A DNA stretch of 64,000 nucleotides from Gracilaria vermiculophylla (Eukaryota; Rhodophyta; Florideophyceae; Gracilariales; Gracilariaceae). Where the stretch lies: positions 2,282,359 to 2,346,358 of the forward strand of contig JAHNZQ020000308.1 in assembly GCA_019155205.2 (NCBI GenBank), written 5' to 3'. The position numbers were made by a program, and so were the translations under genes. The notes under the pieces were generated by a model that saw only the letters and a list, made by a program, of their open reading frames with translations, made no database searches and had not been told where the DNA came from. Positions within the stretch are counted from its first letter, which is position 1. Every line of letters starts with the position of its first letter. This document shows, in pieces, positions 6,062 through 41,037 of this stretch.

Positions 6062-8362
6062 CTACGCTTTGCTAACGGCGACTTCTTCCTGTTCGTCGCT
6101 TGAGGCCTTTTTGGAGCCATTCAACTGCAATTTCTCCTCCATCTTAACTGCAACCGAGGAAATTTCCTTGACTTTCGTACTAGCTTTCTCGTCGCTTTCA
6201 GTTTCTTGTTTCACATCGCCGGTAGCAGTCTCTGCATTCTTCGCAGCCTGACTTTCTCTCTCTCCCCTCTGCCTTTCTTCATCCCATGTTTCATAGCAGT
6301 GATAAACTTGACAAGTTCGTGCCGGGGTGTAAACCTGCAGGTAATATGGTCTATTGTGCCACGGCTCTGTTCTTGTAGTATGTACAACATCCCAATGTAC
6401 TCGTCCATGTCCACCGGTATTCATTCCATCCGAGTCAAGGACCAACCTGTACCGACCTCCCCAATAAGTCCCAATACGATAATCACTGTAAGATTGTGAA
6501 TGGTGGAAGTTAAACACGAACAACAAACGATCACCTTTCTCTATCGCAATCACTTTGTCACCTTCATGAGACAGGACCACATACTGGTGTGCTTGGAACC
6601 GACAGAAAGGATGTTCATCATCCAGTTTGTGCATCATTTTCTCAAACTGATACAAGTGTTTGTATCGTAACGCCTCATTGTCACAAAGATCCCACCGGCG
6701 ACGTGCATGTTGATAGGAATTACCGTTTCCTTCACGCGGAAAGTCAATCCATTCGGGATGCCCAAACTCATTACCCATAAAAGTAAGGTACCCTTCACCT
6801 GACAGGCACATGGTGAGCAGACGAATCATTTTGTGAAGAGCGACGCCTCGCTCAATTGTCGGCGTAGGATAGCCATCACAACTCATGTCAGTATACATAG
6901 CGGCGTCCATCAACCAGAAAGCCATGGTTTTATCGCCAACCAGAGCCTGGTCATGACTTTCACAATAGCCGATGGTCTTCTCGTTCCAACGGCGATTTGT
7001 GAGATTGAAAACAATGTTACCCATGTTCCAGTTTTCATCCTTTTGCTTTTCCAAAACCTCAATCCACATATCGGGAATAGCCATAGCGAGTCGGAAATCA
7101 AAGCCAATTCCTCCCCGTTCAACAGGCACACACAACGTCGGCATGCCGCTGACATCTTCCGCAATGGTAATCGCTACATCCGGGTACAGTTCATGTACAA
7201 GCTTATTAGCAAGCATCATGTAAACACATGCATCGACATCAACTTGGAAACCAAAGTACTCGCTGTAGTTTCCAGTAAATTGAACGCCAATTCCGGAATG
7301 CAAGTAGAGCATAGATGTTACTCCATCAAAACGAAAACCGTCAAAGTGATATTCCTCCATGTACCATCTGAGGTTAGATAAAAGAAAGCGAATCACTTCC
7401 CAATGTCCATAGTTGAACAGCCTGGAATCCCACAAAGAATGTCTACCCCGTTCACCTTCATGAAAGTAGTGGTGGTCAGTGCCATCAAAGTTATTAATAC
7501 CGTCCATAGAGTTGCTCGAGGCATGAGAGTGAACCACATCCATGAGAACGTATAATCCAAGTTTATGCGCCTTATCAATGAGATACTTGAGGTCTTCTGG
7601 TTGACCACATCTAGAACTAATCGCGAAGAAATTGGTGACGTGATAGCCAAAACTCGCATAATACGCATGTTCCATGATGGCCATAATCTGCAAGGCGGTG
7701 TACCCTGTTTCTTTTATGCGCGGCAACACATTATCAGCAAACTCGCGGTACGAGCCAACTTTGAGATCGTTTGAACCCATACCAACATGGCACTCGTAAA
7801 TACGAAGCGAGTCCGGTCGTTTAACATGATTCGGACCGTTCCACTTAAACTTTTCCGGTGGATCCCAGAACACTGTGTCGTATAGATAGGTATTAGGGTC
7901 TTGTACACAGAAAGTGGCCCATGCGGGGTTGCGATCTAACCATGGCCCATTATGTGGTACAACAGCAGCCTTCACCTTGGATCCATGGGGGATCGGAGAA
8001 ACGCCCGGCTCAGTCTCGGGAATAAAGCAAGACCAGATTCCAAACTCATCGCGCTCCATACGGATAGCATGGCGATCCCAGTTGTTAAATTCTCCAAAGA
8101 AATACATTTCACGAGCACTTGGCGCCCACTCTTTGTACCGCACTCCGCCCTTCACGCGATGGATACCCATGGTCTCATAGCCTCTTGAGAATTGTTCCAA
8201 AGACTTCTCACTGGACTCTATTGCGGACAAAATCTCGGAGTACTTCGCGTAGCGATAGCGTAAAGCTTCGGCGAAAGGCTCGAGGTAACGGTCGTCACGA
8301 ATGCAAGCAGTTCCATCCTTCTTGTCCTTCCAAGCGACGTAATGGGGGTCCTCCGATCCCAT
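6062..8362 (-). CDS. GBE1: 1,4-alpha-glucan (starch/glycogen) branching enzyme
   Basis: 766-residue GH13 branching enzyme. It cuts alpha-1,4-glucan and transfers the segment to a 6-OH, making alpha-1,6 branches in floridean starch, which red algae store in the cytosol; the lack of a transit peptide fits. The N-terminal CBM48 module covers about 65-165. The (beta/alpha)8 barrel carries DVVHSH at 275-280, the nucleophile D346 in GFRFDG, the acid/base E402 in AEDVSG, and D471 in ESHDQ. An all-beta C-terminal domain follows to about 690. Beyond it lies a charged, Lys/Glu/Ser-rich tail of some 70 residues (about 695-766), not part of the usual enzyme, perhaps a coiled or disordered regulatory segment. 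The gene is intronless and every key residue is present. It groups with eukaryotic GBE1/SBE by its motif set. Confidence 0.96.
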   Translation of the reverse strand: MGSEDPHYVAWKDKKDGTACIRDDRYLEPFAEALRYRYAKYSEILSAIESSEKSLEQFSRGYETMGIHRVKGGVRYKEWAPSAREMYFFGEFNNWDRHAIRMERDEFGIWSCFIPETEPGVSPIPHGSKVKAAVVPHNGPWLDRNPAWATFCVQDPNTYLYDTVFWDPPEKFKWNGPNHVKRPDSLRIYECHVGMGSNDLKVGSYREFADNVLPRIKETGYTALQIMAIMEHAYYASFGYHVTNFFAISSRCGQPEDLKYLIDKAHKLGLYVLMDVVHSHASSNSMDGINNFDGTDHHYFHEGERGRHSLWDSRLFNYGHWEVIRFLLSNLRWYMEEYHFDGFRFDGVTSMLYLHSGIGVQFTGNYSEYFGFQVDVDACVYMMLANKLVHELYPDVAITIAEDVSGMPTLCVPVERGGIGFDFRLAMAIPDMWIEVLEKQKDENWNMGNIVFNLTNRRWNEKTIGYCESHDQALVGDKTMAFWLMDAAMYTDMSCDGYPTPTIERGVALHKMIRLLTMCLSGEGYLTFMGNEFGHPEWIDFPREGNGNSYQHARRRWDLCDNEALRYKHLYQFEKMMHKLDDEHPFCRFQAHQYVVLSHEGDKVIAIEKGDRLLFVFNFHHSQSYSDYRIGTYWGGRYRLVLDSDGMNTGGHGRVHWDVVHTTRTEPWHNRPYYLQVYTPARTCQVYHCYETWDEERQRGERESQAAKNAETATGDVKQETESDEKASTKVKEISSVAVKMEEKLQLNGSKKASSDEQEEVAVSKA

Positions 8363-8548
8363 AGTCGGCGTGGGAAGCGGCGGGGGTAAAGCGGAGGGGG
8401 GGAAGATCGCGAAGTAAGAAGTATAATCTGCGAGTGAAGCGCATAAAAGCAGTCACCAGTTGGGGTTCTACCAGGGTATAACGTGTAAGCGGCAGGTCAA
8501 CGAGCGGCTGTGCGCAAGTTTTTAAGGAGATGACCACACATGGCATCA

Positions 8549-14174: not shown

Positions 14175-14274
14175 NNNNNNNNNNNNNNNNNNNNNNNNNN
14201 NNNNNNNNNNNNNNNNNNNNNNNNNNNNNNNNNNNNNNNNNNNNNNNNNNNNNNNNNNNNNNNNNNNNNNNNNN
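14175..14274. other. Assembly gap (100 Ns)
   Basis: A run of exactly 100 N, the conventional placeholder for a gap of unknown size. Sequence is missing here and the ORF on the minus strand is interrupted by it. Confidence 0.99.
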
Positions 14275-14923: not shown

Positions 14924-17359
14924 TTAACATGAAGTGCTGATTTCTTCGGCATGTCCCGAAAGACGTAGACCGTATCTCCCGAATACTTCTTTGTAAGTCT
15001 TGGCTATACCGCACCGATTAGTGTCGAACTCTTCCCCAGAAAACCCAACATCTGTGATAAGCTTGGCCACGTCTAGATCTTCTTCCAATCTCTTGTCATA
15101 TATAGTAGTGTGAGGTACCTTCATGCGCACAACCAGCTCCAACACGCGATGATCCGGGGCAATAACGAATCCAGGAATTCCAGCACCCAATGCTATCATA
15201 TTCCCATGAATCCTAGCGCCGAAGGCTACGTCCATTTCTCGTAAACTTTCCATCCATTCTTCAGCGTCGCTGATAAACTTGATGCGGCCGAATGGAATTC
15301 CAGCCTTCTTCATTTGATTCAGATCGTCAAGTGTTTGGGCATACATGTAGCTGTTCGGATAAGAGTTGAGCAGACTAACAAAAAGCGATGTGAGTTTCTT
15401 CTGTGGTTTCATATTCAAGGCAATTTTGAGAGTGCGGTCACCGATTCTAGCCTTCAATGCCTCGTATTTTGAAGCTAGAGACCGTCCGAGTAGGACGTTT
15501 TGGTTGATGAAAAGACTAGGGCATCCTGTAGAGATGCCGTATTTGTAACCAGCGTGTTCTACAGCTTCAAGGGTGAACTGACCACGTACTAACATCGGCA
15601 TTTTGTACCTTTGCATTGTGTTGAGCATATTCATCGCATTCTCAGTGAAGTTAAAGTCTTTTGGCGTGGTGCGAATCTTTTCGCCTGAACTCAAGTCGTC
15701 AATGAGTATATTGGGCTGAAAGAACTGTTGGATGCCAATCCCAACAAACAACAATATATCTCTGTCCCTTTCCACAATCAGACGTTCAAAGGCGAATGTC
15801 ATCTTGCTGGTCTGATCAAATATGTTGGCGATAGGTCGGTAGAACATCATTTGTTTTCCGTCAGGGATAGAATTCTCAGTCTGACATGTCATTCGTGTAC
15901 TGTTGCAAGTTGTGACGGAGTTGAAATCGACCAGTCTGTTCATCGCCGCAAATTGCCAGACCAGGTTTCCATGGTTTTTGCCAGTGTCCTTCAGGGCATC
16001 CTCATAGTCATCGTATTCAATGTGCGCGTTTGGGTAAGATACGAGATTTGAAATAAGATACTTAGAATTCACGTTCTTTTCTGACACAGGAACTTGAACT
16101 GAAGGAGCGGGTCGCTTCTCCAGAGCGGGATTCATAGCAACATTTGTAAGTGACTCCTGATTGAAATGGAGGCCACTTTTCCATGGATCAATGAACGAAG
16201 GAAGAGAAAGAGATTGAATGGAAACGGGCAGAGCGGAAAATTTCTCACTGGCGTTATCCAAGGATAGATTGGAAAGTCCACGATCCAAAGTGGTCGACAC
16301 GGTTCTTTTCCGAGCAATGTCCAAACAAGATGAAATCATGATCGCGGCAAGCATTAATATCTGAACCAATGCAAGAGCCATCATACGTCTCTTCTTGTTC
16401 TTCACGGCATCTGTCTCTTTTCCAAGAAGGTACAAGGGGAATCCAAAGCCAGCCAACGTTAGGCCGACAAAATGTGTTAGAGCGAATGAGTCACCAAGTA
16501 CCACAGCAGAGATAAGAATACCCGTAAAGCGCTTCAAAGTATTCAGGAGTGAATGTGTAAGTGCATCCATGCGTTCGAGCAGAGCTATACTTGCAAATTG
16601 GTAAGAGTTAAACAGAACAGCGTTTCGAATAAGATACGGAAACGAGGGCAGTTGCAGGCCATGGAAAATAAATTTGTAACCTAGAATCAGAACAGCAAAG
16701 GGAAGACAAGATGCTTGCAGAGAAAAATAACGTCGTTCGGTTGACTGATGTTTTGAGCTGTCTCGTTGATCTCTCTTCAGCAGAATGTTGCGCATAGGGA
16801 AGCAGATGTTTGCGAGAACAATAGGTGATACAGTAAGAATGGTAAAGCCTTTTCCAGAGAAAACGAACACGCCTACCAATACCATTACCATACCGAACAC
16901 GGAAACCAGAGGAGTGGATTCGCGCAGCACCAGGCGTTTGAGCACCAATGCTGCGAGTGGCTCGGAAAGCTTCCACATTAAAGTTGAAGTAGAGCCGAGA
17001 AGTTTGTATGATGAGTTTGTCATAATGGTTCCCATAAGATGAAAGAAGCCGATGGAAAGCGATGAGTACTGGACTAACTGAAAAGAAATCTGAGAGCATG
17101 GCTGTTGCTTGATATTACCCTTTTGAAACGCGGTCTTTGATTTTGACAACATCGTGGCCATAAGCATACCGACCAGGATTTGTGCGAAGGTCAAGTCGAC
17201 GAAGAGCAATTCAGATGAGAATCTGGTGAGCAAAATCTGGGCATCGATAGCGTAGATACTGTTGCAGGCCCACCACAAGAGAAATAATAAGCCGATGGTA
17301 GAACAATGGGAGATAAAAGAGGCAGCGCCTGACATGGATGACCCTGAGAGGCCGGTCAT
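14924..17359 (-). CDS. Fusion: phosphate-translocator-like (TPT/PPT, DMT) membrane domain + polysaccharide pyruvyltransferase
   Basis: A single intronless 811-codon frame. Residues about 18-315 form a 10-span drug/metabolite transporter domain of the triose-phosphate/PEP translocator type. The block LLNTLKRFTG carries K276-R277, the Lys-Arg pair that binds phosphate in plastidic phosphate translocators, and LSEPLAALVLK at 131-141 matches the family's EP motif region. A basic stretch (321-325, NKKRR) and an extra hydrophobic span (about 326-346) follow, then a Ser-rich linker and a pyruvyltransferase domain (about 430-790) with DILLFVGIGIQQF and GARIHGN (R716, H718), the family's conserved R-x-H-G. 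Such enzymes use phosphoenolpyruvate to form pyruvate ketals on sugars. The positive-inside layout predicts the catalytic domain in the Golgi lumen. Likely job (inferred): importing PEP and pyruvylating galactan. An ATG pair at 16384/16381 could start a stand-alone enzyme. Confidence 0.87.
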   Translation of the reverse strand: MTGLSGSSMSGAASFISHCSTIGLLFLLWWACNSIYAIDAQILLTRFSSELLFVDLTFAQILVGMLMATMLSKSKTAFQKGNIKQQPCSQISFQLVQYSSLSIGFFHLMGTIMTNSSYKLLGSTSTLMWKLSEPLAALVLKRLVLRESTPLVSVFGMVMVLVGVFVFSGKGFTILTVSPIVLANICFPMRNILLKRDQRDSSKHQSTERRYFSLQASCLPFAVLILGYKFIFHGLQLPSFPYLIRNAVLFNSYQFASIALLERMDALTHSLLNTLKRFTGILISAVVLGDSFALTHFVGLTLAGFGFPLYLLGKETDAVKNKKRRMMALALVQILMLAAIMISSCLDIARKRTVSTTLDRGLSNLSLDNASEKFSALPVSIQSLSLPSFIDPWKSGLHFNQESLTNVAMNPALEKRPAPSVQVPVSEKNVNSKYLISNLVSYPNAHIEYDDYEDALKDTGKNHGNLVWQFAAMNRLVDFNSVTTCNSTRMTCQTENSIPDGKQMMFYRPIANIFDQTSKMTFAFERLIVERDRDILLFVGIGIQQFFQPNILIDDLSSGEKIRTTPKDFNFTENAMNMLNTMQRYKMPMLVRGQFTLEAVEHAGYKYGISTGCPSLFINQNVLLGRSLASKYEALKARIGDRTLKIALNMKPQKKLTSLFVSLLNSYPNSYMYAQTLDDLNQMKKAGIPFGRIKFISDAEEWMESLREMDVAFGARIHGNMIALGAGIPGFVIAPDHRVLELVVRMKVPHTTIYDKRLEEDLDVAKLITDVGFSGEEFDTNRCGIAKTYKEVFGRYGLRLSGHAEEISTSC

Positions 17360-28908: not shown

Positions 28909-31900
28909 TCATACGGACGAAAATGATCTATCAACACCGAGTAAACTATCTCTCACGTCAAACTCTTCATCTCCCTCAGAACTCCGATCCTCCAGCACAA
29001 ATTTTTGGGTGGAAACATTCATCATCTCCGTCCCATGATAACCGACATCATACCCAACATTTGGGGGCTTATACCATCGCAATGCCAAAGAGCTTAACAC
29101 GACACACGTGCTGGACAGAGCCATAGCCCCACTCGCCACAAAAGGGGGCACCCGTATCTGAAATACTGGATACAACGCCCCAGCTGCCAATGGAATTCCA
29201 ATGATGTTGTATCCGACCGCCCAACAAAAATTAAGTTTCACCCTTCGAAACGCCTTTCTTGCCAGATCTAAGGCATTCACAACTCCTCGAAGATCGCTTC
29301 GCACAAGCACTACAGCCGCCGATTCTGCTGCTACCGGTGCCCCCGCCCCGATCGCAATACCAACAGACGCTGCGGCTAGTGCTGGAGCGTCATTGATTCC
29401 GTCACCGACAAAACATGTCGCTTCATTCTCTTTCACGACCGCCACTTTCGTCCATGGCATGGCCCGAGCATGGACTGCACCGAGAGAAATTCCACTTCGC
29501 AACGCGACGGCACGGGCAGTTTCTTCAGAATCTCCGGTGACAATACTGGTGGATATACCCATCTTCTGGATAGCCGTCACAACATCCCGAGCTTCTGCTC
29601 GTATCAAATCTTCCAGGCCAAACACGAAAACAAGCTTGTCATTAACAATAGCCACAACTATTGTTAAACCTTCCTGATCTTCCATGCGCTGCATGCTTTT
29701 CACCTCACCTTCCGTCAGCAACTGCTCCTCGTTCAACCCATCGAACGCAAACTGTCTGGAGCCTATGCGCACCGAATATTCGCCTCTGTTAATCGTGGCC
29801 TTCATTCCCTGGCCTGGGATTTCTTGGATTTCTGAGAGCTTGTAGGCCTTTTGGTTTTGAACATGAATAGCCATGTCTCCTTGACTATTCCTGATATATC
29901 TTGTGATGGCTGAAGCTAAAGGGTGGTGTGACTCTGATTCCACCAAATAGACAATATCTGAAAGAATAACTGACGCCTGCTCCGTAGTTGCGCTTCCTCG
30001 TTCTCCTACGAACACAGCAGCAACTTCAGGTTTTCCCATTGTCAGCGTACCTGTTTTGTCAAAGATCACATGCTTGACACTATTTGCCGCCTCGATGGCG
30101 CTCCCACCGCCTTTGAACAAAACGCCCATTTTGGCGCCCATCTCCGACGCAACCATTACAGCAGTCGGCGTGGCAAGCCCCAGCGCGCATGGGCACGCAA
30201 TAACAAGGGTTTCCAAAGCAAATAGCGCGGCAAAGAGGAGCTTGCCTTCATCCGCGTACCATTCCTGCGGAATCCACTCATACTTAGCCGCTGTGTACCA
30301 TGCACAAAACACGACTAGGGAAATCGCGATGACAACCGGTACGAATACATTTGAGACGTTGTCCGCGAATGCCTCAACCGGAGCACGAGATGTCTGGGCG
30401 TCATTCACCAGTTTGACAATTTGAGAGAGTACTGCATCAGAACCTACGGCCGAAGTTCGCACAAGCAATGAACCGCCACCGTTCACAGTACCCCCATAGA
30501 GGGAATGGCCCTTACTCTTGGGGACTGGTCTACTCTCTCCGGTCAACATGGACTCATCCACAGCGGATAATCCCTCCAGGACCTCGCCATCTACAGGCAC
30601 ACGATCCCCGGGAATGAGCTTCACCACGTCACCGACGCTTAGGGCCTTCACTGACACTTCAGTGTGGCATGTCACGCCATCTACTTCGTCAAATAGAACG
30701 GCACTTTCCGGAGCTAAAGCCGATAGAGCTGCGACACCAGCCGCGGCTCGACGTTTTGCAGATGCTTCCAACCATTTTCCGACGAGGACCATGGTAATGA
30801 TCATGACAGATACCTTAAACATAGCTGCATGACCAAGGGCCATATCGCCTGGTTTAGATGTGCCAAACAACATGACGAAAAGGCTGGAGAAGTATACAAT
30901 TGATGTAGACATGGCAACCAGAACATCCATCGTTGCCCGACCCTTACGAATGGCGTAGTAACTAGCTCGATAGAAGCCGGCTCCACATCCGAACTGCACT
31001 GGAGTTGCCAATACAAAATGTGCGCGTTCCATAAGGCGCTTACTCACCAGCGATGTGTGGGAATGCAAGAGACTGATTATAAGGACTGGGGTAAAGAAAG
31101 CGAGCGACCACAGAAAACGCCCTCTCCACATTCGAGCTTCTTCGCTGATCACGTCTGTAGGAATAAAGCTATCTGCCGATGTCAGATATTCGCTTTCTGC
31201 CTTAGGGGCTTGCTTCACAATCATCTTTCCAAACGTTCCATCATGCTCAAGAATGCGTAATACTGTTGCCTTATAGAAACCTGGAGCGAGTGTTATAGAA
31301 GCGGTGATTTCGTCGATTTCAACATGCTGAACACTTTCTTGAAACCGCAAAGCCTTTACGGCATTATCCGCATGTCTGCTCGTCTGAAAGATGATACAAA
31401 ATCGAACATCCACAGAGGCAGGATCTTGTTTTTGTCTAGCATTAACAATGTCCGAAATAGAGCTTGTATATCCCGAATATGTTAAAGAATCTGCAAGTGC
31501 TTGAGATGGTGTGACAGAAGAATTGTGTAAAATGGTAGCGCGTCCAGCAAGAAGATTAACCCGGGCAGATGACACGCCTTCAAGATTGGAAAGCAAACCC
31601 TCGACGACACCAACACAACTGGAACAGGTCATACCACCCACACGAAGATGGGTTGTCGTCTTGGCAACATCGTTCTCGTGGTCCGCGCCTGCAGACCCTT
31701 CAAGGCCCCCAACATGAGTACGTTTTCCAGGAATTATTTGATTTGAAGGGGGATGCAATGTGGGATTGCTATCTGCAGCGGAGAAATTGTTTGTCGTTGC
31801 ATTGTTCTGCAGACAAATCTCATCGCTATCATTTGATAAAACAAGAGTCGCTGTCTTGCTTGTATTCCTGACGGCGTTTATCAGGTTGTTTGGATCTGAA

Positions 31901-32484
31901 TCGTAACGAAGAGTCGCCAAGCCACTTTTTAGACTAACGTTAACGTTCTCAGAGCCGTCAACTGCCTGCAAAGCATTTGACACAGTACGCACGCACCCCG
32001 AACATGTCATCCCCTCAATCTTCAAAGTGACGGCACGATGTTTCGACGCTCGCGAGACGAGGATGGCATGCTTTCCAGTCTTTTGAACCGCGGCAATGAC
32101 TTGTTCCACGTCGCCGCTCACGAAAAGCGAAGCCGTCGCGCTTTCGAGATCTACTTGAACGTTAGCTGTCGAAGGTACGGCAGATATGGCGGCTGAGACC
32201 TTGTTGACACAGTTCATGCAGGTCATTCCATCGATTTTAAAAGTGACATGACGAGGTGCTTCGGGCTTTGTTCGCGAAATGAGTTGGGATTTCTTTCCGA
32301 CGTCTTCTGTCGCTTGCAGTAACAGTTGTGGATCCTCATCGTACAAGACTGTGGCGATGCCAGTGACCAGGTCTACGTGAGCATGTTGCGCGAAAGGCAC
32401 AGCGTTGAGGGCGTCGGTAACAGTTTTTACGCAGCCCATGCAGGTCAAGTCATGAACCTGCAGCGTGACGGTTGTGGATGCCAT
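28909..32484 (-). CDS. Copper-transporting P1B-type ATPase with four N-terminal HMA domains
   Basis: 1191-residue Cu+ ATPase of the CopA/ATP7/HMA group, pumping copper from the cytosol into the secretory pathway, plastid or outside. Four heavy-metal-associated domains carry C15-MG-C18, C89-MN-C92, C161-SG-C164 and C287-SS-C290. A fifth, Cys-less HMA-like repeat occupies about 357-425. Eight spans follow; the transport-site motif is C764-P-C766, the phosphorylated Asp is D809 (DKTGT), TGES is at 648-651, the SEHHP-type block ESHHPL at 851-856, and GDGINDAP at 1027-1034. The Thr/Ser/Val-rich linker at about 220-275 separates domains 3 and 4. Intronless and complete. The C-terminal tail (about 1140-1191) is polar and acidic. 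Compartment cannot be told, as there is no transit peptide. Confidence 0.95.
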   Translation of the reverse strand: MASTTVTLQVHDLTCMGCVKTVTDALNAVPFAQHAHVDLVTGIATVLYDEDPQLLLQATEDVGKKSQLISRTKPEAPRHVTFKIDGMTCMNCVNKVSAAISAVPSTANVQVDLESATASLFVSGDVEQVIAAVQKTGKHAILVSRASKHRAVTLKIEGMTCSGCVRTVSNALQAVDGSENVNVSLKSGLATLRYDSDPNNLINAVRNTSKTATLVLSNDSDEICLQNNATTNNFSAADSNPTLHPPSNQIIPGKRTHVGGLEGSAGADHENDVAKTTTHLRVGGMTCSSCVGVVEGLLSNLEGVSSARVNLLAGRATILHNSSVTPSQALADSLTYSGYTSSISDIVNARQKQDPASVDVRFCIIFQTSRHADNAVKALRFQESVQHVEIDEITASITLAPGFYKATVLRILEHDGTFGKMIVKQAPKAESEYLTSADSFIPTDVISEEARMWRGRFLWSLAFFTPVLIISLLHSHTSLVSKRLMERAHFVLATPVQFGCGAGFYRASYYAIRKGRATMDVLVAMSTSIVYFSSLFVMLFGTSKPGDMALGHAAMFKVSVMIITMVLVGKWLEASAKRRAAAGVAALSALAPESAVLFDEVDGVTCHTEVSVKALSVGDVVKLIPGDRVPVDGEVLEGLSAVDESMLTGESRPVPKSKGHSLYGGTVNGGGSLLVRTSAVGSDAVLSQIVKLVNDAQTSRAPVEAFADNVSNVFVPVVIAISLVVFCAWYTAAKYEWIPQEWYADEGKLLFAALFALETLVIACPCALGLATPTAVMVASEMGAKMGVLFKGGGSAIEAANSVKHVIFDKTGTLTMGKPEVAAVFVGERGSATTEQASVILSDIVYLVESESHHPLASAITRYIRNSQGDMAIHVQNQKAYKLSEIQEIPGQGMKATINRGEYSVRIGSRQFAFDGLNEEQLLTEGEVKSMQRMEDQEGLTIVVAIVNDKLVFVFGLEDLIRAEARDVVTAIQKMGISTSIVTGDSEETARAVALRSGISLGAVHARAMPWTKVAVVKENEATCFVGDGINDAPALAAASVGIAIGAGAPVAAESAAVVLVRSDLRGVVNALDLARKAFRRVKLNFCWAVGYNIIGIPLAAGALYPVFQIRVPPFVASGAMALSSTCVVLSSLALRWYKPPNVGYDVGYHGTEMMNVSTQKFVLEDRSSEGDEEFDVRDSLLGVDRSFSSV

Positions 32485-32993
32485 TGCTCGTGGAAGGGAT
32501 GCGCGGCAGGCGAGACGGTCGGGGCGGATGTGAGGAACAGCAGGATTTTGAACACAGTGAGGACGCCATTTACGGCGTGCTAGTTCAATTCAAGGCACGG
32601 AATGCACGTACAATAGTAAAGAAAGGAAGGATGCGTATGAGCATTGCACTCATCGGGGAGATGACGGCCACGGGGTTGGGGCCCTCGGCTCAGGGGCCCG
32701 GCGTAACGCGACGTGACAGCGCCGCGCTGGGGCGACGGCCAGAAGCTTAGGAGGGCGCGCACAGCGGCAGGCAGAGAAATGCGTTTCGGCGCGAAGGGCA
32801 CTCCCGACGCGCATGCGCTACGTGGCACCCGCATGCACGCCGTACTGCGCACGTCTGTGAGAACATCCAGTTGGCGGCTTACAGTATGTGGCGGCCCTGA
32901 CGTCAGCGTGCCGCTCCACCCGCCTCAGTCATGGCTCCGCCCCAGCGACCCGCACCTTCGACCTGCCCGAGTCAAACTGCATCCTACCCGGCT
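32485..32993. promoter_or_regulatory. Spacer between the copper ATPase and the HMA protein
   Basis: About 510 bp containing the promoter of the copper ATPase. A moderately GC-rich region; no metal-response element that I can identify. Confidence 0.35.
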
Positions 32994-38824: not shown

Positions 38825-39421
38825 TCACGGCGGTGGCAGCACGACTTGCTCGCGCGCGACGCGCACAGCGTCAGCGTCGAAGAGTTGAAGCGTGTGGTCG
38901 AGCTGATCAGCGGCGGTGGCGATGCACTTGAGCCAGAAGGAAAGCACCTGGGGCGACGGGGTGGCGCGATTGGCCATGGGGTCAAAGTACTCGACGATCT
39001 GGTTGAGGTACTCGTAGGCGTCGCGGCCGGCAAGCAGGGCGCTCTCGCGGCGCGGCGGGGGCAGGCGGCGCGCGGCGGCGGGCAGGTTGCGCGGGAGGTC
39101 GGTGGCGCGCAGCAGCGTGCGCACGACGCGGCGCACGTCGGCGTTGGTGCCGCGCTCGATGTCGGAGGAGAGGTCGCGCAGCGAGTCGCGGAGGCGCACC
39201 AGCGCAACGAGCGCGGTGTCAGAGGTGGCGTCAGCGGCGTCAGCAGCGCGGGAGGCGGCTGCCAGCGGTAGGCAGGGCAACAGGGGAAGAAGGGGAAGCA
39301 GTGCGCGGCGCGACAGGGCCGTGCGAGGGGAGGCGGTGGCCGGGTCGGGGGTGGCGCGCGGGGGAGGAGGTGGCCGTGGCGGAGGCGGGAGCGCGGCGAA
39401 GAAGGAAAGGACGGTATGCAT
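38825..39421 (-). CDS. Predicted Tat-type thylakoid-lumen protein, helical
   Basis: 198 residues from the ATG at 39421 (another ATG lies 12 bases upstream). An Ala/Pro-rich leader is followed by SRRALLPLLPLLPCLPL and AAASRAADA, which reads as a twin-arginine lumen signal (RR, hydrophobic core, A-x-A cleavage) behind a plastid transit region. The mature part, about 120 residues, is strongly helical and charged (RLRDSLRDLSSDIERG, RRVVRTLLRATDLPR, QLDHTLQLFDADAVR), a four-helix-bundle pattern similar in style to PsbQ-type extrinsic proteins, though I do not claim that family. High Ala/Arg content follows the GC-rich DNA. Likely plastid, possibly photosystem-associated. Confidence 0.55.
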   Translation of the reverse strand: MHTVLSFFAALPPPPRPPPPPRATPDPATASPRTALSRRALLPLLPLLPCLPLAAASRAADAADATSDTALVALVRLRDSLRDLSSDIERGTNADVRRVVRTLLRATDLPRNLPAAARRLPPPRRESALLAGRDAYEYLNQIVEYFDPMANRATPSPQVLSFWLKCIATAADQLDHTLQLFDADAVRVAREQVVLPPP

Positions 39422-39759
39422 GGCGACGCGCAATGGAGAGGGAGGAGAGATACGAGGGGAGAGAGGGAGATTTAGAGGAGAAAAGGGGGGGATAAAGGGC
39501 GGATCTCCGCGGCGGGCACGGGTGGCGCGCAGACTGCGGCAGCCAGGCGGTGTACAGTAGACCGATGCGCGGACACAGTAGACCTACGTACCCTTGGTAG
39601 ATAGAAGCAGAAGATAGTTGAAGAGCATTAGATGAGCTTGTGCTGTTTTACTTTGTGGTGTTGGGGGGGTGGGGAGGGTGTCAGCGCGCGCCATGTGTCA
39701 ACTCGGTCGAAGTGTGTTAGTGTACAGGCCGGCAGGCAGGCGACAGGTGGCGGACGCAG

Positions 39760-40578
39760 TTACGGCTCCTTGTGGTGGATTTTGCGCGCGTGTCGCGTAA
39801 GGCTGCTGCGCTGGCCAAAGGCAGCGCCGCATTCGCAGCGGAATGGGCGCAGCTTTTGGTGCACGGTGAGAACGTGCGCCTCCAGGAAGCTCTTGCGCCC
39901 AAAGTGGTTGCCGCACAGCTTGCACTCGAACGGCCGGATCTTGGCGTGCACCATGCGCATGTGTCGGTTGCGGTCACTGCCGCGCTTGAACCATGCGTCG
40001 CACTGCGGGCAGCCGTAGGCGCGCCCCGCCTTGCCCGGCCGCCCCACGCGCGACGACGAACAGCCGCCGCCGCCCAGCGACCCGCCGCCCGACGCCGTCA
40101 GCCGCCCCGCACCCACGCGCCCCGCGTACACCCCCTCGCCCGATGATGCGTGCACCGAGCGCCAATGCATGTTGAGGTGCCCCGGCTTGCGGAACAACAC
40201 CCCGCACACCTGGCACGCGATGTTCATCTCCGGCTGTTGCGCCGCCGTCGACGACGGCGCGGCGCGCGTCGTTGGCGTCGTCGCCGCGTCCGTCGACAGC
40301 ACTGTCTGCCAGAAGTGCGACGAGCTCCGTGTCGGCGCCGCCGTCGCCGCCGTCCCCGACGGCGTTGTGCCCGCCGCGCCCGCCAGCGCGGGCGCCGTGT
40401 GCGTGCGTGACGACGGCGACGGGCGTACCCCGCACCCGCCGTGCCGCAGCGACAGCAGCGACGCGCACGCCGCGGGCACGGACGATGCTGACAAGTCCAT
40501 TCGCGACGCGGGCGTGAGCGCGGGCGCGGCGTGCAGCGCCACCGTGGGCGAGGCGAATGCTAGCGTCGAAGGTTGCAT
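39760..40578 (-). CDS. C2H2 zinc-finger protein with four fingers
   Basis: 272 residues from the ATG at 40578 (an upstream ATG at 40629 would add 17). The N-terminal two thirds are Ala/Ser/Thr-rich. The first finger is IACQVCGVLFRKPGHLNMHW with a second His (H-x4-H), then a Gly/Ser spacer, then three tandem fingers: YGCPQCDAWFKRGSDRNRHM, FECKLCGNHFGRKSFLEAHV and FRCECGAAFGQRSSLTRHAR. The last has C-x-C instead of C-x2-C. A probable DNA-binding transcription factor. GC-rich coding sequence, intronless. The opposite strand has long spurious ORFs because of the GC-rich third positions. Confidence 0.83.
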   Translation of the reverse strand: MQPSTLAFASPTVALHAAPALTPASRMDLSASSVPAACASLLSLRHGGCGVRPSPSSRTHTAPALAGAAGTTPSGTAATAAPTRSSSHFWQTVLSTDAATTPTTRAAPSSTAAQQPEMNIACQVCGVLFRKPGHLNMHWRSVHASSGEGVYAGRVGAGRLTASGGGSLGGGGCSSSRVGRPGKAGRAYGCPQCDAWFKRGSDRNRHMRMVHAKIRPFECKLCGNHFGRKSFLEAHVLTVHQKLRPFRCECGAAFGQRSSLTRHARKIHHKEP

Positions 40579-41037
40579 TGCGAGCGCTCTCGAGCACAGC
40601 TGAAAGCCGTCAATTGATCGCGTCGACAAACGACTTGGCGCGACCGTGGCGGAGCGGCAACGGGTGCCCGAGCGCCGACGCCTGCGCAGCCGTCGCGCCC
40701 AAGAAGCACCGCCGCGCCGTCGGTAAACGCGCCCATCGGCGCTGCCGCCATGAGCAGCAGTCTACCCACACGTGTTGTGGCCGCGCACGTGCTCGGTACG
40801 TCAGCGCGCGGCGCAACGCGCGCCGCCATACGTGCGAGCCGCGCTGCACCGCTGGCTGATTGTACTCCCGCCGCTGCGCTGTCCGGTCGGTACGTGCTCG
40901 TGCCGCGCATCTGCCAAAACGCTCCGTCGCCGGCTCGGCGAACACGCAAAACTTTTTTACGCCGCTCCCTCTCCCCCTCTCCTCCTCTCCCCCTCACTCC
41001 GCCACCTTACCTTACACCTCCCCTGCAACTTTACTCC
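40579..41037. other. GC-rich spacer between the C2H2 and NASP genes
   Basis: About 460 bp containing the C2H2 promoter and the NASP 3' end. A CT-rich tract occurs around 40960-41040. Nothing else is recognisable. Confidence 0.4.

Follow-up and report, generated by a model that had tools for sequence, protein, structure and literature searches.

We describe a gene of the red alga Gracilaria vermiculophylla that encodes, in a single chain, a TPT-type membrane transporter followed by a polysaccharide pyruvyltransferase domain. It lies on the reverse strand of a 64,000-nucleotide stretch of genomic DNA (assembly GCA_019155205.2, contig JAHNZQ020000308.1, positions 2,282,359 to 2,346,358), hereafter the window, in whose numbering coordinates are given. 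The fusion is confirmed as a real gene, with chance excluded, and we consider it probable that its product is a Golgi antiporter, taking phosphoenolpyruvate (PEP) in and phosphate out, joined to a galactan pyruvyltransferase; the PEP cargo, the direction of antiport, the Golgi location and the galactan acceptor are what we infer. The parts and their cooperation were already known. The single-chain form is present in databases and is new to the literature as far as the matches listed there go, none of which describes such an architecture in a set that covers subscription journals only in small part.

The fusion gene and its relatives

The gene comprises 811 codons plus a stop in one frame with zero internal stops (835 codons when the same frame is measured from stop to stop), and the chain runs from a ten-span TPT half through one further span, the eleventh, and a linker that is probably flexible to the PF04230 polysaccharide pyruvyltransferase domain (Table 1). 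Both halves score above their Pfam cut-offs: TPT (PF03151) at residues 21-310 with 80.8 bits against a cut-off of 30, covering positions 2-290 of the 291 in the profile, and PS_pyruv_trans (PF04230) at residues 590-737 with 37.3 bits against a gathering cut-off of 25.3. An earlier note, made from the letters of this DNA, had claimed an uninterrupted 811-codon frame joining a ten-span TPT/PPT-type transporter to a pyruvyltransferase domain and had suggested profile searches as a check; the frame is borne out by its reading, and the two domains by the Pfam matches and the helices of an AlphaFold2 model. In the genome searched (44.8 Mb, 27 contigs; by exon, with first-look candidates scored), PF04230 was found at one place, the fusion gene, and no second place was found with the G. 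chorda paralogue P0007 or with P0024 as query. A run of 100 N at 14175-14274, probably an assembly gap, lies some 650 bases past the stop codon and leaves the gene untouched.

Table 1. Coordinates of the fusion gene, its parts and its predicted functional residues in the window
Feature	Position	Strand	Basis
TPT-type transporter and polysaccharide pyruvyltransferase fusion open reading frame, stop included	14924..17359	-	frame, Pfam, homologues
TPT transporter half, ten helices, residues 21-310	16430..17299	-	
Eleventh membrane helix, residues 321-352, behind basic loop	16304..16399	-	AlphaFold2 helix and hydrophobic stretch in relatives
Linker, residues 347-429, low confidence, probably flexible	16073..16321	-	predicted local distance difference test (pLDDT) <50
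Predicted pyruvyltransferase domain, residues 430-811 with stop, GT-B-like fold	14924..16072	-	PF04230 39.2 bits; model pLDDT 91.9
K130, at Galdieria TPT K204	16970..16972	-	alignments; 14/14 sequences with the column
Y253, at Galdieria TPT Y339	16601..16603	-	alignments; 16/16
K276-R277, at Galdieria TPT K362-R363, phosphate binding	16529..16534	-	alignments; 16/16 sequences with the column
R592, at the place of Pvg1p R217 / CsaB R148, putative PEP site	15584..15586	-	17/17; matched by motif and spacing, not by alignment to Pvg1p or CsaB
R716-I717-H718, at the place of Pvg1p R337-L338-H339, putative PEP site	15206..15214	-	R716 and H718 16/16; matched by motif and spacing
R738, at the place of Pvg1p K361 / CsaB K328	15146..15148	-	16/16; 20 residues past the His as in CsaB; putative correspondence

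A protein search that scored the best 7998 candidates returned at least 16 homologues, the full-length ones spanning 96-100% of the query. Agarophyton chilense, whose genus belongs to the Gracilariaceae, carries a collinear fusion with 75% identity over 100% of the query, Gracilariopsis chorda carries two collinear copies (63% and 45% identity), and further collinear fusions occur on other contigs, some of them as transcript-derived proteins. In alignment A1 (17 sequences, the window's protein included) TPT is matched by 16 of the 17 and PF04230 likewise by 16 of 17, at E 0.001. The joined frame is present both in P0002, named gb/GEZJ01004859, which we take to be a transcript assembly, and in P0003, which bears a Trinity name, and thus exists in transcript-derived proteins of relatives. 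Because collinear fusions occur in relatives, some of them transcript-derived, the fusion is not an accident of assembly, and an assembly or frameshift artefact was rejected on these grounds and on the unbroken frame. The earlier note had named absence of the fusion from all related algae, two separate transcripts, or a frameshift between the halves as signs that would count against it; A. chilense and G. chorda carry the fusion, it occurs in transcript-derived proteins of relatives, and the single open frame excludes the frameshift.

Gracilaria domingensis is represented by database models P0006 and P0024, which start within the tenth and the ninth span respectively and which we take to be models cut short or broken at introns. 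Used as a query by itself, the transporter half found at least three fragments, two of which continue into the first part of the enzyme domain. No named match from other red algae (for example Chondrus or Porphyra) was among the matches listed, which is not proof of absence. For P0017 and P0025, which are distinct proteins of the pyruvyltransferase family, the longest contig listed has 41268 bases in both cases, so that they are perhaps neighbouring copies.

Conserved residues, family placement and predicted topology

Pyruvyltransferase activity, that is, PEP-dependent ketal transfer, is predicted for the C-terminal domain from its sequence. R716 and H718 of the GARIHGN motif, singled out by the earlier note as enzyme residues, are both invariant, and this Arg and His recur in three aligned PF04230 proteins from bacteria, which share with Paenibacillus alvei CsaB, as reported, an Arg, then Arg-x-His, then a Lys/Arg motif; the change K328R in CsaB is reported to retain activity. 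CsaB and the bacterial PF04230 proteins lack a transporter domain, unlike the algal fusion, which reaches 17.8 bits against the CsaB model (cut-off 213.1). PF04230 is matched by all nine enzyme domains scanned, and five cysteines are invariant in the enzyme half. Fold comparison gives the GT-B fold, common to many enzymes, and it is by fold that the algal enzyme finds Pvg1p of Schizosaccharomyces pombe: searched by sequence with the enzyme profile, the PDB returned no chain, Pvg1p included, and with the single enzyme half it returned one match at E 0.24, taken as chance. Genome contigs of bacteria and archaea, scanned with the enzyme alignment and P0031 as queries, gave pattern matches and zero confirmed relatives, as did viral contigs scanned likewise, and PHROGs gave no match to the query. 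The best plasmid-borne bacterial match has 23% identity over 83%; the match on Sinorhizobium meliloti pSymB falls at a place where its record is unannotated.

In the transporter half, the pair K276-R277 is invariant, as the earlier note's assignment to the phosphate site would have it. The residues compared correspond to Galdieria Y339, T188 and H185, whose roles in that protein we presume, and to the reported phosphate site of the Galdieria triose-phosphate/phosphate translocator (PDB 5y78), namely K204, K362 and R363 (from a passage citing Lee 2017). At 15 places, the fusion gene among them, the genome scores above the Pfam cut-off for the TPT family, and the fusion half was compared with the top-scoring paralogue (L005), the Galdieria protein and the 13 other paralogues. 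The complete set at K204, Y339, K362 and R363 is found in 11 of 11 fusions and in L005 and in none of the 13, none of which has the Tyr or the Arg. The 11 fusions, L005 and the Galdieria protein separate from the 13 paralogues in a tree with support 100/99, and a profile built from the 11 fusion halves gives 87.6 bits for L005, 70.4 for the Galdieria protein and at most 23.6 for the 13 paralogues. L005 (G000:C8:536110-537000) is the sole other carrier of the full phosphate-site set among the 14 paralogues compared, and with it as query no second gene of its type was found in the genome, searched by exon among the candidates scored. A higher number of plastid-type translocators per genome is expected than was found here.

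The structure model shows ten helices, then the eleventh, then the low-confidence linker, and a hydrophobic 19-residue stretch above threshold stands behind the tenth-span motif in all 20 sequences listed for that motif. When lysines and arginines were counted per loop, with loop bounds set from the structure model, the N-terminal side had more of them than the other side in each of the 14 sequences counted, with 16 to 7 in the protein of the window. This bias and the eleven spans together predict a cytosolic N-terminus and a lumenal enzyme, in line with the proposal of the earlier note that the extra span gives a lumenal catalytic domain. Its further suggestion of a second, soluble-type product from the adjacent internal ATGs at 16384 and 16381 finds no support: a conserved second start was rejected, as 4 of the 17 aligned sequences have Met at the first place and 1 of 17 at the second, and such a product would be membrane-anchored rather than soluble because it would keep the eleventh span.

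Proposed function and rival explanations

Phosphate translocators exchange a phosphate ester for phosphate. In the mechanism that we favour, the N-terminal half would be an antiporter of the drug/metabolite-transporter fold, placed close to the phosphate translocators within the TPT family, swapping cytosolic PEP for lumenal inorganic phosphate, and the eleventh helix would set the C-terminal pyruvyltransferase in the lumen of an endomembrane compartment of Golgi type. The enzyme would take the carboxyethylidene group from PEP and attach it as a 4,6-ketal to galactose in an agar-type galactan, freeing phosphate as the counter-substrate of the antiporter, so that PEP entry, formation of the pyruvate ketal on galactose and phosphate exit may form a closed cycle. 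The release of phosphate from PEP by ketal transfer is stated in a CsaB assay legend, and pyruvated agar units are reported in Hydropuntia edulis and some other Gracilaria (PMC7511586). Whether the Golgi of red algae acquired a plastid-type translocator that became joined to the lumenal enzyme using its substrate, with import, ketal transfer and phosphate export stoichiometrically coupled, we regard as evenly balanced.

Pet1p and Pet2p of S. pombe are TPT-family proteins. In that yeast Pvg1p is a Golgi membrane protein that reportedly depends on Pet1p/Pet2p for PEP (PMC4872226, PMC6801904), the two being termed putative PEP transporters in the title of the primary paper, so that, as in the proposed algal unit, PEP would enter the Golgi lumen and there serve a galactose pyruvyltransferase. 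The likeness drawn here is one of function, and the jobs that the yeast splits over separate proteins are placed on one chain in the alga. Conservation, residues, profile, predicted topology and this precedent, which the earlier note does not cite, support the core idea of that note, a fusion of phosphate-ester translocator and pyruvyltransferase with a lumenal enzyme for PEP import plus ketalation; the soluble product is the part without support.

Several observations weigh against this reading. At least two N-glycosylation sequons occur in the enzyme half of 17 of 17 sequences, a weak sign of lumenal location because the transporter half carries sequons too (15 of 17). Two further relatives, P0028 and P0030, have an N-terminal hydrophobic segment in type II style, but that of P0028 is below threshold, P0027 has none, and several other further relatives appear cut off; P0028 falls among the fusions in the enzyme tree (support 85/93, on a long branch), and therefore gain and loss of the transporter are not distinguishable. 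At the phosphate site, 7 of the 13 other paralogues have Lys at the K204 place and 10 have it at the K362 place, and H185 is not kept: all 11 fusions carry T, S, A or V there, and L005 carries H. In the transporter tree the fusions form a long branch, for which the program issued a warning, and with L005 as query three of the 13 paralogues (63.9, 38.7 and 37.7 bits) rank above the fusion (19.2 bits, E 0.012). The fusion falls far short of TIGR00817, the curated model for plastid Tpt proteins (55.3 bits against a cut-off of 317.9); L005, with 280.2 bits over a 297-residue piece, is also below that value. Taken with the profile scores, this points to a diverged branch, nearest by profile to the plastid translocators and outside the TIGR00817 subfamily.

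The transporter half might instead have a different cargo, such as triose phosphate or some other phosphate ester, or a nucleotide sugar such as UDP-galactose, with a separate PEP carrier and a fusion that merely co-localises two steps of galactan synthesis. TPT/NST (SLC35-type) transporters share superfamily and fold with the fusion half, but the 13 TPT/NST paralogues in the genome all lack the complete Lys/Tyr/Lys/Arg set of the fusions, and profile and tree place the half with the phosphate translocators; we find this cargo rather unlikely. The Galdieria translocator, for its part, has no enzyme domain. A different activity of the C-terminal domain within the pyruvyltransferase fold is favoured by the modest Pfam score and by the breadth of the GT-B fold, yet the PEP-site arginines and histidine are invariant across deep divergence and every domain scanned matches PF04230, and we hold such an activity to be very improbable.

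A plastid function is unlikely, and we give little credence to an envelope protein that would couple PEP movement in plastids to some modification made outside the secretory pathway. The best-scoring profile relatives are plastid-type translocators, both G. chorda copies are labelled chloroplastic translocators in databases, and P0009 and P0018 have longer N-termini, a small point that also counts against a Golgi protein. By the structure model, however, the window's protein has about 11 residues ahead of its first helix, in contrast to the long N-terminal stretch in the open frame of L005, whose true start may lie further in; the invariant cysteines of the enzyme half speak against a plastid too, as does carrageenan synthesis, reported to take place in the Golgi in part at least, although some labelling data say otherwise (PMC10311240). 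The chloroplastic names of the two G. chorda proteins may thus mislead.

A Golgi PEP antiporter joined to its pyruvyltransferase would supply agar synthesis with a concrete candidate enzyme and a candidate supply of its donor across the Golgi membrane. A review of glycan pyruvylation describes knowledge of the transferases as scarce. In a paper on the genome of an agar seaweed, pyruvyl transferases count as a needed step, and none is named in the passages concerned. If its cargo is PEP, the fusion would also be a clean case of a transporter joined to the enzyme that feeds on that cargo.

Other features of the window

Also on the reverse strand, a long frame at 6062-8452 with CBM48, an alpha-amylase domain and its C-terminal domain is probably a starch branching enzyme, and a single 1226-codon frame at 28909-32589 encodes a heavy-metal P-type ATPase with four HMA stretches. 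Two stretches, 1001-2000 and 39001-41000, are rich in GC (0.67-0.73 per kilobase, against 0.35-0.62 in the remaining kilobases).
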